A stretch of DNA of 64,000 bases, from the NCBI RefSeq assembly GCF_947496725.1, contig NZ_CANMDS010000002.1:186001-250000 (forward strand), in the 5' to 3' direction. The notes beneath the pieces are model-generated. The model made no database searches and had not been told where the DNA came from. It was given only the letters and a program-made list of their open reading frames with translations. The position numbers were made by a program, and so were the translations under genes. Positions 5,135 through 25,881 of the stretch are shown piece after piece (position 1 is the stretch's first letter; each line of letters begins with the position of its first letter). The DNA comes from an uncultured Dokdonia sp. Lineage in GTDB: Bacteria > Bacteroidota > Bacteroidia > Flavobacteriales > Flavobacteriaceae.

Positions 5135-6775
5135 ATGAACTTAAAAAGAGCAACCGTTTTTGCTCTTGTAATCGTGGGTATGGCACTCACTCTGGTAAAT
5201 TGTGCAAAACGCGGCTCACCAGACGGAGGGCCTATGGATAGCCTACCTCCTGTGTTTGTAAAAGCGACACCGCCTAACTTTACAACCAACTTTGATGGAG
5301 ATGAGATACGCATCTACTTTGATGAATATGTAAAGCTTAAAGACTTGCGCAAGCAGCTTATCATCTCGCCTCCTATTGTAAATAGGGTCATCTCACCGCA
5401 GGGAACTGCTTCAAAATATATCAAAATTGACATTCAAGATACGCTAGCTCCTAACACCACTTATGTATTTAACTTTGGGCTAAGTATTGTAGATAATAAT
5501 GAAGGAAACCCTTTCCCGTCATTTAAATATGTGATGTCTACTGGAGACTATATAGATAGCCTCAAAGTATCCGGGAAAATTATAGATGCAGTGGCAGAAA
5601 AGCCAGACAACTTTGTTACTGTAATGCTTTACGAAGCAGATAGTACTTATACAGACTCAACGGTTTATAACAAACCTCCTCTATATGTTACTAATACACT
5701 AGATAGTTTAGACACTTTTACACTAGACTACCTCAAGCCTGGAAAGTATGCGCTTATAGGTCTCAAAGATGAGGATGCAAACTATACCTTCCAGCCTAAA
5801 AAGGATAAAATTGCCTTTATAGAAGAGTTTATTAATGTTCCTACAGACTCTTCTTATACATTAAAGTTATTTACAGAGGCTCCTGCTTATAAAGTCTCAA
5901 GACCTAAGCACGCAGCAGAAGGTAGAATAGCCTTTGGAACCACGGGATATAGAGATAGTATTGCTATTAATCTTCTAACAGATGCAGGAGACAAACACAC
6001 CTCAACAATTACTAAAAAAGGTGAAGACACCCTTTACTACTGGTACAAGCCTAAGCTGGCAATAGACTCTCTTATATTTAACGCTACTGCTCCTGGATAC
6101 TCAGACACCTTACAAGCACGTATAAGAAAACCAAGATTAGACTCGCTCTCATTTTCATCTAAGTACCGAAATGTAGTTTTATTTAATAAAGCTTATCGTA
6201 TACAGAGTAATATCCCCATAGATAGTATAAACAAAGACCTTATTACCGTTATAAAAGACTCTACAGAAATAGAGTTTGACTACGCCCTTGCAGAGAATAG
6301 TACAGCTATTGATTTTGACTTCAAGAAGGAAGAAAAAACGAAATATAGTATCACGGTCTTACCAAATGCGATTACAGATTACTTTGGACAGAAGAATGAC
6401 ACCTTGCGCTACAAAGCCCAAACTAAGGAAATAGGTGATTACGGTGATATAGAGCTCACACTAGTAAATGCACAAGCATTCCCATATATCGTACAGTTGC
6501 TCGATAGTCAAGAAAAGGTGGTAGAAGAGCGCTTTAGTACAAAAGAAACGGTATTTGAGTTTAAGCTTCTCAAGCCTGGTAAGTACAAAGTGCGCCTTGT
6601 AGAAGATGCAAATAACAATAAAGTTTTTGACTCTGGTAACTTTTTACTAAAGAGACAGCCAGAAATTATAATAAACTACCCTGGTGAGATAGAGGTGCGA
6701 CCTAGCTGGTTTGCAAAGGAGCGATTTGAGCTACTCCCTAAAGAACAGCCACTAGAAATTCCTACCCCAGAGTAA
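5135..6775 (+). CDS. Lipoprotein with N-terminal Ig-like (Big_5) domain
   Basis: Outer-membrane-type lipoprotein. From the ATG at 5135 the protein has a basic start, a hydrophobic stretch and the lipobox LVNC, with Cys at residue 23. An in-frame ATG at 5111 exists, but the longer version puts a polar stretch before the signal peptide and a promoter-like box lies right in front of it, so I prefer 5135. The mature N-terminus (PPVFVKATPPNFTTNF, then DEIRIYFDEYV) is typical of bacterial Ig-like domains of the SbsA/Big_5 kind. The rest is beta-rich, with a carboxypeptidase-regulatory-like stretch (LKPGKYKVRLVEDANNN) near the end. The 3' end overlaps the convergent amidase gene by 14 bases. Confidence 0.85.
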   Translation: MNLKRATVFALVIVGMALTLVNCAKRGSPDGGPMDSLPPVFVKATPPNFTTNFDGDEIRIYFDEYVKLKDLRKQLIISPPIVNRVISPQGTASKYIKIDIQDTLAPNTTYVFNFGLSIVDNNEGNPFPSFKYVMSTGDYIDSLKVSGKIIDAVAEKPDNFVTVMLYEADSTYTDSTVYNKPPLYVTNTLDSLDTFTLDYLKPGKYALIGLKDEDANYTFQPKKDKIAFIEEFINVPTDSSYTLKLFTEAPAYKVSRPKHAAEGRIAFGTTGYRDSIAINLLTDAGDKHTSTITKKGEDTLYYWYKPKLAIDSLIFNATAPGYSDTLQARIRKPRLDSLSFSSKYRNVVLFNKAYRIQSNIPIDSINKDLITVIKDSTEIEFDYALAENSTAIDFDFKKEEKTKYSITVLPNAITDYFGQKNDTLRYKAQTKEIGDYGDIELTLVNAQAFPYIVQLLDSQEKVVEERFSTKETVFEFKLLKPGKYKVRLVEDANNNKVFDSGNFLLKRQPEIIINYPGEIEVRPSWFAKERFELLPKEQPLEIPTPE

Positions 6776-7541
6776 ATACATCTTTGTCTTGAAGAAACGG
6801 CAACTTTACTCTTGTCTCTTTAATGTGGTTTTTTGAAAGTGTAGCAAGCACTACCTTTTCTTCAACTCTTGCAATAGCCATAGTTTTACCCAGCACATCA
6901 TATGCAGCGGTGTGACCTACATAATTGAGATTATTTGCATCTGTACCTACTCGATTTACACCTATGGTATAAGCCATATTTTCTATAGCGCGCGCTTGTA
7001 ATAAAGTATCCCACGCTCCTACTCTAGCCTCTGGCCAGTTTGCTACATATAAGACCACATCATAGCCTGAGGTATTTCTTGCAAAAACAGGAAATCTCAA
7101 ATCGTAACAAACTTGCAATAGTATTTTCCACCCTAGGTAGGTCACAGTGATGGGAGCATCACCAGCTTGATATTTTTCACCCTCACCTGCCATATTAAAG
7201 GTGTGCCTTTTATTGTAATAATCTACCGTACCCTCTGGAGTTACAAAAACAAAACGATTATAGTACAAATCGTTTTCCTCTATAATGAGACTACCACAAA
7301 TAGCCGTTTTATATTTTTTTGCTTGTGCTTTCATCCACTGCACTGTGATGCCATCCATAGTCTCTGCTAGAGGTCCTGGATTCATAGAGAAACCGGTTGT
7401 AAACATTTCTGGCAAGATGGCGAGATCACAGTTTTCTGGTAATTGTGTAAAGTGCTTTTCAAAGGCTAGGCGATTTTGAGCGGGTTGCTCCCAGATTAAA
7501 TCGCTTTGTATCATTGCTACATTAAGTTGATCTCTTTCCAT
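6762..7541 (-). CDS. Omega-amidase, nitrilase superfamily (YafV type)
   Basis: Carbon-nitrogen hydrolase that in this subfamily deamidates 2-oxoglutaramate or 2-oxosuccinamate in the cytoplasm, supporting transaminase-linked salvage such as methionine recycling. The catalytic triad is visible: Glu45 in LPEMFTTGF, the Lys in YNKRHTF and the Cys in QVCYDLRFP. I chose the start at 7541 (MERDQLNVAM) because the upstream 12 codons from 7577 do not fit the family N-terminus. The methionine aminotransferase at 12153 is its natural metabolic partner, but it is not in the same operon. Confidence 0.9.
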   Translation of the reverse strand: MERDQLNVAMIQSDLIWEQPAQNRLAFEKHFTQLPENCDLAILPEMFTTGFSMNPGPLAETMDGITVQWMKAQAKKYKTAICGSLIIEENDLYYNRFVFVTPEGTVDYYNKRHTFNMAGEGEKYQAGDAPITVTYLGWKILLQVCYDLRFPVFARNTSGYDVVLYVANWPEARVGAWDTLLQARAIENMAYTIGVNRVGTDANNLNYVGHTAAYDVLGKTMAIARVEEKVVLATLSKNHIKETRVKLPFLQDKDVFTLG

Positions 7542-22123: not shown

Positions 22124-22552
22124 ATGTCTTTTGCAGATTTATATGATAGCGGTTTCCGCCAAAGAAATGAAGATCACTTTGCAGCTATAGTGCGTGTCGC
22201 TATGGATGATGGTGTGATCTCTGATAAAGAAAAAGCATTTTTAGATAGACTTGCTCGTAACCTCTCTATCTCTGCAGAGGATTATGAAATCATCCTTAAG
22301 GATTATATGACGCACCCTATTAACCCTCCTACTACGTATGATAGAAGATTAGAGCGTTTATATGACCTTACTCGTATGGTGCACATAGATCACGAGTTTG
22401 AAGAAGAAGAGCCATTACTAGAACGTCTTGCTATAGGCTTAGGTTTTAATACAAAAAATGCGAGCTATGTTGTGCATAAAGCACTTACACTAGTTAAAGA
22501 AAACGCAGATCTTGATACTTTTCAAGAAGAAATCAAGAATATGAATCGCTAG
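22124..22552 (+). CDS. TerB-like domain protein
   Basis: A 142-residue all-helical acidic protein. The segments IVRVAMDDGVISDKEKAFLDRLA and RMVHIDHEFEEEEPLLERLA (each about a helical hairpin with Asp/Glu) match the duplicated TerB/DjlA-N fold, a probable metal-binding module of tellurite-resistance and co-chaperone proteins. There is no J domain and no other ter gene nearby, so the role is unknown. Single gene with its own promoter and terminator. Confidence 0.8.
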   Translation: MSFADLYDSGFRQRNEDHFAAIVRVAMDDGVISDKEKAFLDRLARNLSISAEDYEIILKDYMTHPINPPTTYDRRLERLYDLTRMVHIDHEFEEEEPLLERLAIGLGFNTKNASYVVHKALTLVKENADLDTFQEEIKNMNR

Positions 22553-22568
22553 TTTTAAATCGATTTAG

Positions 22569-22616
22569 ATAAAATAAAAAGGGTCAAAAATTAATTTTTG
22601 ACCCTTTTTATTTTAT
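22569..22616. terminator. Bidirectional terminator, 48-bp perfect palindrome
   Basis: A perfect 48-base palindrome centred between 22592 and 22593, with GGGTC/GACCC in the middle of each arm and A/T tracts outside. It ends both the TerB-like gene and the minus-strand kinase operon. Confidence 0.88.
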
Positions 22617-22629
22617 AACATATATCCTT

Positions 22630-24201
22630 CTACTCTTCTTCTTCTGATATCTCAAGCACTTTATCCTTGCGCTTGTATCTAGATAAGAGTCGCTCTATAG
22701 TAGAAAATAGTAAATCTGCATCTATAGGCTTAGTAAGATAGGCATTCATACCAGCTTCTTTTGCCGCGTCTTGCTCTTCTTGAGATGTTCTCGCTGTGAG
22801 GGCTATAATAGGTAACTTACTTACTTTTTTATTACTACTGTTTCTTATTTGTACAGCTGCATCTAGACCATCCATCACAGGCATAGTAAGATCAAGAATA
22901 ACTAGGTCATAAGGAAACCTATCTAGGTACTCTACTACTCTTTCACCATTCTTTGCTATGTCTAGGCTATAAGCACCATAATCTGCAAAGAGTCTCATCA
23001 TTAGTAACTGGTTAACCTCAACGTCTTCTCCTAGAAGAATACGTGGTCTTTTTGCACCTTTTAAATCTTTTTTATCTCGTTTCTTTTTGGCTACTTTTTC
23101 TTTTTTCTGGTTATGAGAAACTCCCATAAACACTGTAAAGCTAAAGGTTGACCCTTCTCCCTCAACACTCTTTACCTCCAAATCACTCTCTAGCAAGTCT
23201 GTGAGCTGCTTTACGATACTAAGTCCTAGGCCTGAACCTCCAAAAAGACCTCTTTTTTCTAATTGAGTAAAACTGTCAAAGATGCTGTCTAACTTTTCTT
23301 TAGGAATACCTATACCCGTATCTGTAACCTCAAATGTTACTGGAATACGTCGAGCATTTACAGACGAGGTAGTTACACTAAACTTAATGCCTCCTTGATG
23401 CGTATATTTTAATGCGTTTTCAAGTAGATTTACTATAACTTGATTGATACGCAAGTGATCACCTACTAGAAAGCGAGGAATCTTAGAACTAAGTTCAAAA
23501 TCAAACGATAATCTCTTATCATCTGTGCGTATTTGATAGGTCTTTGCTAGTTTTTCAACAAACTCTCTAAAGTCAAATCGTCGTTTCTTAATATCTAACT
23601 TACCAGCTTCAATTTTTGAGATATCCATTAAGTCATCTAAGATGGTGACTAAATTTTTTGAACTATCCTTTATAATATGTAATACATCCAGTTGCTCTCT
23701 CGATATCTCTGTGTTTTCTAACACAGAAATGAAACCTACTATACTATTAAGTGGAGTCCTAATCTCGTGACTTACGTTTGCAAGAAATTTATTTTTAAAA
23801 CTACGCTGTATCTCAAGTTGTTGATTGAGCTCTTGAGAGATATTAAAGTTTATTATAGACTCGTTGCGCACCTGCTTGATTTGATGCACTGTTTTATAGT
23901 GATCTGTAAGATCGTTAAGTATAAGTACGAGTGTATCTCCATCTTCACCTATATAGGTCTTTATGTCTATAAAGTAATGTTTACCCAGCACTTCCATCTG
24001 CACACAGAAGAAGGTCTCCTCTTGAAGTTCTTCATCAAATATGGTGGTAAGAGCAAAAAAGAACGGATGAAAATCCGTGATATCAGAGTTTTTACTAATG
24101 TCAAAAAGATTGTTGTCTGAGTCTACAACCTCTAATTCTCTATTTACTACAACCAGTTGTGTAGTTTTATTTATAAAATCTTGTCTGAGATTATCAAGCA
24201 T
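22630..24201 (-). CDS. Hybrid sensor histidine kinase / response regulator
   Basis: A 523-residue cytoplasmic hybrid kinase with no membrane segment. The N-terminal 1-125 is PAS-like (LVLILNDLTDHYK at its end). The dimerisation domain carries the phosphoacceptor His145 in NVSHEIRTPLNS. The ATPase domain follows with N box (NLLENALKYT) and G boxes (DTGIGIP, GGSGLGLSI). A C-terminal receiver has Asp near 437 in ILDLTMPVMDG and the Lys in YLTKPID. It is the last gene of an operon and overlaps the GTPase gene by 8 bases, which suggests that the soluble kinase reads out or controls the GTPase module. Confidence 0.95.
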   Translation of the reverse strand: MLDNLRQDFINKTTQLVVVNRELEVVDSDNNLFDISKNSDITDFHPFFFALTTIFDEELQEETFFCVQMEVLGKHYFIDIKTYIGEDGDTLVLILNDLTDHYKTVHQIKQVRNESIINFNISQELNQQLEIQRSFKNKFLANVSHEIRTPLNSIVGFISVLENTEISREQLDVLHIIKDSSKNLVTILDDLMDISKIEAGKLDIKKRRFDFREFVEKLAKTYQIRTDDKRLSFDFELSSKIPRFLVGDHLRINQVIVNLLENALKYTHQGGIKFSVTTSSVNARRIPVTFEVTDTGIGIPKEKLDSIFDSFTQLEKRGLFGGSGLGLSIVKQLTDLLESDLEVKSVEGEGSTFSFTVFMGVSHNQKKEKVAKKKRDKKDLKGAKRPRILLGEDVEVNQLLMMRLFADYGAYSLDIAKNGERVVEYLDRFPYDLVILDLTMPVMDGLDAAVQIRNSSNKKVSKLPIIALTARTSQEEQDAAKEAGMNAYLTKPIDADLLFSTIERLLSRYKRKDKVLEISEEEE

Positions 24202-24691
24202 TTTCTAACAATTGCGCTGCTACATCCTTAAACAGCTGTTCAACATTTTCGCCAGTTTTGGCACTTGAAAGATAACTATGTTGAACTTCTTGCTCTTCTA
24301 GAGCTTTCTTAATTTCATTAGCATCGACTAAATCCACTTTATTACCGATAATGTGCACAGGCACGTTAGGGTGTTTTTCTTTTAAATGACCTAAGTTGAA
24401 CTTTAGATCACCATAAGTTACCGGCCTAGATGCATCAAAAACATATACAAAGCTAGAAGCCCCCATAAGATATGATGGCCTATACTTAGTAAAATCATCA
24501 GTACCCTCTACATCCCATATAATAAGGGTAACCTTATTACTTGCATCAACAACTACTTCCTTTTTCATTATGTGAACACCTATGGTTACCACATAATTAT
24601 CTGAGAATGTATTTTCTACAAACCTGCGAAGAAGTGAAGATTTACCTACACCAAAATGTCCTAACAATACAATTTTCTTAGATACGCTCAT
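24194..24691 (-). CDS. Ras/Rab-like small GTPase
   Basis: A 165-residue protein with all guanine-nucleotide motifs: G1 GHFGVGKSS (11-19), a switch I Thr at 36, G3 WDVEG (59-63), G4 NKVD (117-120) and G5 SAK (143-145). There is no C-terminal lipidation signal. The residue after the G3 glycine, the catalytic Gln61 of Ras, is Thr64 here, so intrinsic hydrolysis may be slow and a partner GAP may be needed. It overlaps the upstream gene by 14 bases and the kinase by 8. Bacterial relatives such as MglA work with roadblock-type partners, and the upstream neighbour has such a segment. Confidence 0.93.
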   Translation of the reverse strand: MSVSKKIVLLGHFGVGKSSLLRRFVENTFSDNYVVTIGVHIMKKEVVVDASNKVTLIIWDVEGTDDFTKYRPSYLMGASSFVYVFDASRPVTYGDLKFNLGHLKEKHPNVPVHIIGNKVDLVDANEIKKALEEQEVQHSYLSSAKTGENVEQLFKDVAAQLLENA

Positions 24692-25478
24692 CAGTAAAAA
24701 ACTCTTTTAATTTTTTTGCAAATATAATATTATCATCTAAGTCTTCCTTGTTTATTACATATTGAGCAAAATCAAGTAAAACATCTTCAAGTTTATCCTT
24801 AAACTTATCATCATATATACCACTTACAATAACAGCAATATAATACTTTGAGAAATTCTGTAGATGTATAGTAAAAAGTTGATAATCTATGCGCTCAAGC
24901 TCCATCTCACCTTTCTCAAAAGCATCTTCTGCAAAGCTTTTAATAGCTGTAAGCATACCCGCCATCATATCTTCATCCATTGTCTGGTTCTTAGCAAAAT
25001 TTGCTTTGAGTATTCCAGAACCTTTTTCAACTACAAGTACTTGTTCAATATACGCTTTATATTCTTCTTTAAGCATCATTGCAGCCGTAGGCCTTTCTTT
25101 TGACTTTGACTTAAATATGCTTTTAAATGAAAAGGTAGCATTTATTTTTTCATTTATGGAGTCACTTAGTTTTGCGACCTCAGCTTGAACGTACTTCTTA
25201 ATCATCTTTCCCATAATAGGAAAAAGTGCCTCTGCTACAGCATCTTGAGATTTTTTAATCTCATTTTTAAGTGTTTCTGTTATCACCGGGCCAAGTGTTT
25301 CTGGCATTGTGGTCACAAATTGCTGTAAGCGCTCGTCTAGTAAGGGGTCTATTCTATCAGATAAGTTTTTCTGACTGTTTTCTAATGCTTTAATCTTCTT
25401 ATATACGTCTTTTTCAGGCTCTTTCTCATTAGTGAGTAAAAGTTCCTTTAAAATTTCAAGACGCTCATCTGTAGTCAT
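24678..25478 (-). CDS. Protein with possible roadblock/longin-like domain, GTPase partner
   Basis: A 266-residue soluble protein. The N-terminal half is helical and Glu/Lys-rich, with a conserved-looking AEALFPIMGKMIKKYV near residue 83. The C-terminal half (about 135-235) has the pattern EQVLVVEKGSGIL, then DEDMMAGMLTAIKSFAED, then a strand-rich end (YYIAVIVSGIY). That pattern resembles roadblock/LC7 or longin-like regulators; the match is from memory and needs a profile search. The same order of segments occurs, as far as I recall, in proteins of other phyla that carry an OmpA domain. Tight overlap with the GTPase supports a role as its regulator. Confidence 0.6.
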   Translation of the reverse strand: MTTDERLEILKELLLTNEKEPEKDVYKKIKALENSQKNLSDRIDPLLDERLQQFVTTMPETLGPVITETLKNEIKKSQDAVAEALFPIMGKMIKKYVQAEVAKLSDSINEKINATFSFKSIFKSKSKERPTAAMMLKEEYKAYIEQVLVVEKGSGILKANFAKNQTMDEDMMAGMLTAIKSFAEDAFEKGEMELERIDYQLFTIHLQNFSKYYIAVIVSGIYDDKFKDKLEDVLLDFAQYVINKEDLDDNIIFAKKLKEFFTDERI

Positions 25479-25494
25479 TTAAAGATGTTACCTA

Positions 25495-25845
25495 TTACTC
25501 TTTAATATTTTTACCTAAACGTATAAGTAGATCACCAAGGGTATCACGACTCACTTTTTTATTATCTAGATCTTCTGTCTTATCGTTTAAAGACTGTTCA
25601 AGGTCAGATATGCGTATATTAACATCAGTACTGAGGTTATCTACGGCAGTCATAATTTCCTTACGAGCCTCATCTACATAAGCAAGCATCTCCTCACGCT
25701 TTTGCGTGATATCAGATTTTAACGCCTCAAACTCGTGATCATACTCTTGTATGTTTTCACCAAAAATGAGGTTCTTGATTGCCTCAATTTTTGAGTTTGC
25801 TACATCTTGAGGTTGCTGGTCGTCTGCTTTTGTATTTTTAGCCAT
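25495..25845 (-). CDS. Small coiled-coil protein, first gene of the GTPase operon
   Basis: A 116-residue, acidic, entirely helical protein. A short motif IEAIKNLIFGENIQEYDHEF (residues 23-42) is followed by heptad-rich coiled coil to about residue 100 and a C-terminal LGDLLIRLGKNIK helix. No membrane segment or catalytic residues. The next gene begins 17 bases downstream, so it is likely a structural or scaffold part of the same module. Family not recognised with certainty. Confidence 0.75.
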   Translation of the reverse strand: MAKNTKADDQQPQDVANSKIEAIKNLIFGENIQEYDHEFEALKSDITQKREEMLAYVDEARKEIMTAVDNLSTDVNIRISDLEQSLNDKTEDLDNKKVSRDTLGDLLIRLGKNIKE

Positions 25846-25873: not shown

Positions 25874-25881
25874 CAAATATA
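25874..25881 (-). promoter_or_regulatory. -7 box of the GTPase operon promoter
   Basis: TATATTTG on the minus strand, 28 bases before the ATG at 25845. No convincing TTG box upstream. Confidence 0.45.

Follow-up and report, generated by a model that had tools for sequence, protein, structure and literature searches.

What kind of system is formed when a small GTPase and a hybrid histidine kinase are encoded side by side is the question raised by four adjacent open reading frames (ORFs) of an uncultured Dokdonia sp. They lie on the minus strand of a stretch of 64,000 nucleotides (contig NZ_CANMDS010000002.1, positions 186,001 to 250,000; hereafter the window) and encode a coiled coil, a protein of 266 amino acids (aa), a GTPase and a hybrid kinase. 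A preliminary description, made from the sequence alone, had likened the set to the MglA/MglB module of Myxococcus, with the 266-aa protein as roadblock/longin-like partner of the GTPase. We propose, with a rough probability of 0.55, that the operon is a soluble version of a Group 1 Rup system (Wuichet and Søgaard-Andersen, 2014, PMC4316618), in which a longin platform would regulate a Rab-like GTPase, and this in turn would switch a hybrid histidine kinase gated by a PAS domain. The four genes are as follows.

25495-25845, minus strand: gene 1, coiled-coil protein, 116 aa (ORF)
24678-25478, minus strand: gene 2, 266 aa, helical N-terminal region and predicted C-terminal longin-like domain (ORF, AlphaFold2 (AF2) model)
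24194-24691, minus strand: gene 3, Rab-like small GTPase, by sequence of Group 1 Rup type, 165 aa (Pfam Ras 4.6e-33; Rab30)
22630-24201, minus strand: gene 4, soluble hybrid histidine kinase, 523 aa (Pfam HisKA, HATPase_c, Response_reg)

Genes 1 and 2 are separated by 16 bases on recounting (25479-25494) and not by 17 as described earlier, whereas the overlaps of 14 and 8 bases given for the two following junctions agree with the ORF coordinates.

The four genes are one conserved unit and travel together. We searched 149 genomes of the window's own family, 125 of them of good quality, for the 266-aa protein (E <= 0.001) and for the GTPase (E <= 1e-10), and found the former in 31 genomes and the latter in 30, with each present in 24 of the good-quality set. 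Both occurred together in 30 genomes; among the other 119, one contained a broken fragment of the 266-aa gene, 118 contained neither and none contained the GTPase only. The broken piece, in G062, matches residues 13-123, has a stop codon inside and is the sole difference between the two sets (Fisher p 1.2e-30 for co-occurrence, with relatedness ignored). Loci were fetched for 30 of the 31 genome matches, the window's own included, and in all 30 the coiled-coil and GTPase genes flank the 266-aa gene, the coiled-coil match being weak in L031 (24% identity, 3.7e-6). We also took the best 80 of at least 441 relatives of the 266-aa protein in a species-level genome collection, where the neighbours were the coiled coil in 79 loci, the GTPase in 79 and the kinase in 78. 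The exceptions were two contig ends (L040, L089) and L093, which has neither GTPase nor kinase beside the pair. Genes 2 and 3 likewise overlap by 14 bases in 67 of 79 loci, with start codons picked mechanically, and the closest named locus among the matches listed was another from Dokdonia (L032, 99% identity over the 266-aa protein). Co-occurrence elsewhere had been set as a check in the preliminary description and was borne out. The L093 pair (5586-6801) consists of coiled-coil and longin genes on a metagenome-assembled Flavobacteriaceae contig.

Beyond the family, a phylum-wide search of 395 genomes with the 266-aa protein gave matches in 14. Three members of the window's class were found, all short frames (266-283 aa) and one of them in another family. 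Outside this class, relatives occurred at 12 places in 11 genomes, always in open frames of 598-738 aa, and all four that were tested contained OmpA. The coiled coil adjoins 11 of the 12 long relatives and a GTPase lies within the fetched stretch in 9, while three distant genomes of one genus that have no GTPase near the pair all carry a related GTPase elsewhere (3/3). The same gene order is found on Mesorhizobium plasmids, as a coiled-coil homologue, an annotated 'OmpA family protein' (1021 aa), a 'Rab family GTPase' and a cyclase, and on a Nostoc plasmid, where the longin-type protein has 763 aa. At L152, L153 and L154, in genomes that also carry an orphan coiled coil-longin pair, an unlinked Rup GTPase is followed by two open frames, which by eye look like successive outputs with PAS-like N-termini.

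Conserved neighbourhood could also mean that the genes stay together only through shared transcription and synteny, with the GTPase and the kinase acting in separate pathways. The flanking genes are often kept as well, namely the upstream fructose-bisphosphatase gene, which runs in the same direction as the operon, in 38 of 80 loci and a downstream TerB-like gene in 55 of 80; synteny alone therefore proves little. Against separate pathways stand the near-perfect co-occurrence across genomes, the recurrence of the same set in other phyla and the related GTPase retained in the three genomes in which the coiled coil-longin pair is unlinked, and we regard that explanation as highly improbable.

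The composition of the unit is that of a published class. According to the accessible part of the 2014 study, Group 1 Rup systems comprise a coiled coil, a protein with an 'unknown domain' that is often joined to a transmembrane (TM)-OmpA half, a Rup GTPase and an output with an invariant Gln, and Bacteroidetes, Cyanobacteria and a Mesorhizobium are among the bearers named (PMC4316618). The same text states that, as of 2014, no Rup member had been characterised by experiment and the partner domain matched no Pfam model; the authors' idea for the invariant Gln was that it completes the GTPase site in trans (PMC4316618). The window operon fits this class, on sequence features that can be tested rather than by a place in the 2014 Rup tree: it has the coiled coil, the conserved-domain protein, a GTPase with the G3 Asp and no catalytic Gln (Thr64), and a Gln-bearing output. 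From its position and its OmpA-type homologues, we infer that the domain of the 266-aa protein is the unknown domain of that paper, and Gln110 of the kinase is a candidate for the invariant Gln. The window operon differs in that its second protein has no TM-OmpA half and its output is a soluble hybrid kinase. The preliminary description had not recognised the combination as a named system; as far as the accessible sources go, the class has been known since 2014. The soluble form, together with sigma-54 activators and a cyclase as outputs, which the accessible description does not name, extends it, as do the longin-like and PAS-like folds predicted here. A literature search, with most subscription papers outside its reach, returned nothing on longin domains in Rup systems.

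The assignment of the GTPase was examined through its nucleotide-binding motifs, compared over 79 sequences.

24638-24661, minus strand: G1/P-loop GHFGVGKS, residues 11-18 (G11, G14, G16 and K17 in 79/79)
24503-24517, minus strand: G3 motif WDVEG, residues 59-63 (D60, E62 and G63 in 79/79)
24332-24343, minus strand: G4 motif NKVD, residues 117-120 (N117, K118 and D120 in 79/79)

All 79 sequences share the residues of G1, G4 and G5 and the Asp of G3. Residue 64, the place of the catalytic Gln, is Thr in the window, and over the whole set it is Asn in 25, His in 24, Gln in 14, Thr in 13, Leu in 2 and Ser in 1. The best PDB match was Rab30 (2.8e-22), nearly all of the 60 best matches listed were Rab or Ypt, and the Pfam Ras match upheld the earlier label of a Ras-like GTPase. 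An MglA-type GTPase was considered and rejected: replacement of the G3 Asp is the criterion for MglA in the portion of the 2014 paper available, which also calls Rab, Ran, Ras and Rho very similar to Group 1 Rup (PMC4316618), whereas Asp60 is kept in 79/79. On its sequence, the GTPase is Rab-like, of the Rup kind, rather than MglA-like.

The identity of the 266-aa protein is less apparent from its sequence, as a Pfam scan gave nothing above cut-off. We modelled it as a single chain with AF2 and compared the model with the PDB using Foldseek and VIA.

24693-25052, minus strand: predicted longin-like domain, residues 143-262 of the gene 2 product (AF2 model, Foldseek/VIA against the PDB)

The model had an overall predicted local distance difference test (pLDDT) score of 60 and a predicted template modelling (pTM) score of 0.47, with block means of 65-85 over residues 141-266. 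From residue 143 the elements follow the order β-β-α-β-β-β-α-α with both C-terminal helices present, and the VIA match extends through residue 266 and takes in both. This order is the one given for longins in the accessible parts of two papers, in which roadblock domains have a helix before the sheet and no second C-terminal helix (PMC10933270, PMC3521125). The best VIA matches were the longins of AP complexes, with AP2 sigma at Z 14.2 over 116 residues and 2.3 A, followed by those of Mon1-Ccz1 (12.2), TRAPP (12.1), Fuzzy-Inturned (12.0) and a Lokiarchaeal longin (11.1); the root mean square deviation (rmsd) of these matches (Z 14.2 to 11.1) ranged from 2.3 to 3.2 A. Profile searches pointed in the same direction below significance. 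Against the PDB, the top two matches were the TRAPP longin BET5 (E 0.13 and 0.9), and in Pfam the families matched by most members were Fuz_longin_1 and Intu_longin_1 (7 of 94 each, best 0.0038 and 0.015), both of which were absent among the families listed (25 of 38) for a PAS-domain profile run as control in the same way against both databases. A phmmer search with the Nostoc domain found nothing. As the sequence support is below significance, the fold comparison carries the longin claim, and the unknown domain of Group 1 Rup systems is predicted from the model to have a longin-like fold rather than that of an MglB-type roadblock.

What the preliminary description had called roadblock/longin-like therefore stands at the level of the superfamily, whose fold, the check it had proposed, is present in the predicted structure; the roadblock side was dropped, since longins match the model better than MglB. 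Had it held, the 266-aa protein would be a roadblock GTPase-activating protein (GAP) in an MglA/MglB-type polarity module, and the unit would control gliding or polarity. The roadblock fold is related to that of longins, MglB chains do occur among the Foldseek matches (6h5b_B, 9.7e-4), the gliding gene GldJ is present in the genome and a short, low-confidence helix (residues 132-139) precedes the sheet of the model, so element order alone cannot exclude a roadblock-like start. The MglB match ranked 15th with an rmsd of 12, much poorer than the longin chains. No MglB entry was among the 50 VIA matches listed, which by itself excludes nothing, and the window protein had no Robl_LC7 match in Pfam up to E 1, where the PAS-domain control gave one in 76 (E 0.011). 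In the text of the 2014 paper that could be consulted, 0 of 121 Rup sequences are coupled to MglB (PMC4316618). GldJ scores above its curated cut-off in 143 of the 149 family genomes (148 at E <= 0.001), and gliding therefore cannot explain a unit that is present in 30. Membership of the MglA/MglB family, already at odds with the invariant G3 Asp and the Rab matches of the GTPase, was thus abandoned together with the link to gliding or polarity, and a polarity module of this type seems to us very unlikely.

The window operon shares with MglA/MglB of Myxococcus a small GTPase encoded with a partner of the roadblock/longin superfamily, and differs from it in a GTPase that keeps the G3 Asp, a partner that fits longins better and a signalling enzyme within the unit. 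The actinobacterial conservons CvnA-D similarly combine a GTPase, a kinase, a protein of the roadblock/longin superfamily and a fourth protein in one operon. There, according to the accessible part of the survey, CvnD and CvnB are homologues of MglA and MglB respectively, CvnA is a membrane-spanning kinase and a response regulator is lacking (PMC4316618), whereas the window operon has neither an MglA-type GTPase nor an MglB-type partner.

The fourth gene was compared over an alignment of 90 kinases from the 80 loci plus the window, and residues 1-133 of its product were modelled with AF2, again as a single chain.

23803-24201, minus strand: N-terminal PAS-like domain and signalling helix, residues 1-133, putatively facing the GTPase (AF2, Foldseek)
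23872-23874, minus strand: codon of Gln110 in the signalling helix (conserved residue)
23131-23796, minus strand: HisKA and HATPase_c, residues 136-357, phosphoacceptor His145 (Pfam)
22696-23040, minus strand: receiver domain, residues 388-502, Asp437 intact (Pfam)

The domains found by Pfam bear out the soluble hybrid kinase of the preliminary description, and the catalytic motifs of the window kinase are intact; across the alignment the phosphoacceptor His is kept in 88 of 90 and the N-box and G-box residues in 90 of 90. The N-terminal segment, for which Pfam gave no match, was predicted to be PAS-like with a long exit helix (mean pLDDT 89.7), the PAS fold spanning residues 14-97, and its top Foldseek matches were PAS/LOV domains, three of them at E <= 0.001. 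Gln110 is present in 90 of 90 kinases, in 99 of 100 sequences once stand-alone and further forms are added, and in all 23 of a hand-picked diverse set of hybrid kinases, kinases, sigma-54 activators, a cyclase and two stand-alone domains, from which one stand-alone relative with Ser (L141) was left out. Gln15, likewise invariant in the 90 kinases, was rejected as the system-wide Gln since it is not found in distant outputs. A second hybrid kinase with a PAS-like domain lies downstream of the first in 11 loci (L042-L045, L047-L049, L051, L052, L054, L055), and in L042 and L043 this second copy no longer has the phosphoacceptor His.

The PAS-like domain with Gln110 precedes three classes of enzyme, namely kinases, sigma-54 activators and a nucleotide cyclase. 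At L127 (1902-3656) and L129 (1895-3679) the Rup GTPase is directly followed by a PAS and sigma-54 activator protein (Pfam). The order at L140, L142 and L143 is coiled coil, longin-like protein, GTPase, a stand-alone PAS-like protein (198-200 aa) that retains Gln15 and Gln110, a second GTPase and a kinase, and the position of the stand-alone protein between two GTPase genes suggests that the GTPase meets the PAS-like domain. These proteins, which have no kinase domain, would also suit the reverse direction of signalling, in which the longin-like protein acts as effector or scaffold for the GTPase, the PAS-like domain is the GAP or regulator of the latter and the kinase acts upstream. Such a role is compatible with a conserved Gln110 supplied in trans and with the frequent replacement of the receiver Asp, and for the conservons the 2014 authors, in the part of their text that could be seen, take the GTPase as the output (PMC4316618). 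The fourth gene, however, varies between kinase, sigma-54 activator and cyclase with the PAS-like domain constant, which looks like a set of interchangeable outputs, and we consider an upstream kinase possible but doubtful.

We therefore return to the longin platform acting on a Rab-like GTPase that switches the kinase, for which we infer every binding and regulatory step from what is observed (the order of the genes, their co-occurrence and the residues conserved in them) and from the predicted longin-like and PAS-like folds. The coiled coil and the longin-like protein would form a scaffold. The longin-like domain, probably as a dimer, would bind the Rup GTPase and determine which nucleotide it carries, and would more likely do so by promoting exchange, like TRAPP or Mon1-Ccz1, than by acting as a GAP of the MglB type. 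Once loaded, the GTPase would dock on the PAS-like N-terminal domain and switch autokinase activity through the signalling helix, where Gln110 may either complete the GTPase site in trans or carry the signal, and phosphate would pass to the receiver and on to an Hpt or a regulator. In the versions with OmpA, the platform is probably attached to the cell wall and may therefore receive its signal from the envelope; without this anchor, the Dokdonia version would have to sense something cytoplasmic or be recruited otherwise.

Several observations weigh against this scheme. The 266-aa protein was modelled with low overall confidence, a helix precedes the sheet of the model, and the MglB match in Foldseek would also allow a GAP role. 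No profile search matched the protein to a longin at E 0.001. In the PDB search, BET5 was followed by an unrelated dethiobiotin synthetase at E 1.0, and the top match of the PAS control profile, a designed TIM barrel at E 0.24, came close to the 0.13 of BET5. The unrelated family RPAP3_C was matched by 5 of 94 members, and ten domains scanned singly (eight from distant Bacteroidota, and those of Mesorhizobium and Nostoc) yielded one longin match at E 0.19. Nine distant loci have a GTPase nearby, and in four of them the GTPase and kinase genes are divergent from the coiled coil-longin pair. The 14 of 79 GTPases with Gln at G3 make it less likely that a Gln in trans is strictly required. The receiver Asp is replaced in 27 of 90 kinases (kept in 62, with one row truncated), and no Hpt domain exceeds the Pfam cut-off in this genome, where two sub-threshold matches were found. 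Finally, the stand-alone PAS-like protein at L141 (5221-5640), beside a single GTPase, has Ser at position 110; it is perhaps a decaying relic.

The first gene is conserved in sequence, with the N-terminal motif KIxAIKxLIFGE at residues 19-30 (conserved alignment columns). It has no Pfam domain above cut-off, and the coiled-coil assignment is based on sub-threshold matches of coiled-coil type and on the sequence itself. The products of genes 1 and 2 (25495-25845 and 24678-25478) have a similar N-terminal helix motif with an 'LR-x-LLxG' look, and a profile comparison of the two was suggestive only (probability 19-23%, E 2.5e-4 to 9e-4); a common motif, read from the sequences, could reflect pairing of the two proteins or a common partner.

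The flanks of the operon contain two candidate signals.

22569-22616, strand not assigned: 22-pair hairpin between the kinase gene and the convergent TerB-like gene
25874-25881, minus strand: -7-like box TATATTTG, upstream of gene 1 (weak evidence)

The hairpin has a folding energy of -24.6 kcal/mol (z -8.3) and was matched by 0 of 200 shuffles. It is likely a terminator, as had been described behind the operon, and may serve both strands given its position between convergent genes; the TerB-like gene (22124-22552, 142 aa) converges on the operon from downstream. A terminator scan of the window did not list it, probably because the T-run is base-paired within its A/T arms. TAnnTTTG is the Bacteroidota -7 consensus. 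The promoter-like box described earlier does exist as one such sequence and is weak as evidence, with 81 boxes on both strands of the window and no TTG among the 35 bases that precede this one. A sigma-70 scan found 20 sites, not above shuffles (mean 16.6, standard deviation 3.8).

Among eukaryotic systems, similar folds are found in the Rab guanine nucleotide exchange factors (Rab-GEFs) TRAPP, Mon1-Ccz1 and Fuzzy-Inturned, in which a longin-like domain is likewise paired with a Rab-like GTPase; the profile signal is weak. The 266-aa protein is bacterial and its chain carries a single domain of this type, attached to a helical region, whereas bacterial relatives outside its class are joined to OmpA (4/4 tested), and the sequence similarity to the eukaryotic proteins is not significant. 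It is tempting to regard the Group 1 Rup operon as a bacterial Rab-plus-longin exchange module whose longin-like domain shares common ancestry with the longins of eukaryotic Rab-GEFs, an idea that we consider unlikely. In the accessible portions of two studies, phylogeny does not resolve the relations of prokaryotic and eukaryotic small GTPases (PMC4915359), and longins are placed in a large PAS/GAF superfamily with members in every domain of life (PMC4917890), both of which count against common ancestry. If true, a GTPase and its activator platform would have been linked genetically in bacteria, before or apart from membrane traffic, with many modules held at the cell wall through OmpA and connected to kinases, sigma-54 activators and cyclases. 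A partner of longin type would offer a specific and testable hypothesis for the regulation of Group 1 Rup GTPases and would place the longin-Rab pairing in bacteria, and the soluble Dokdonia set should be well suited to reconstitution.

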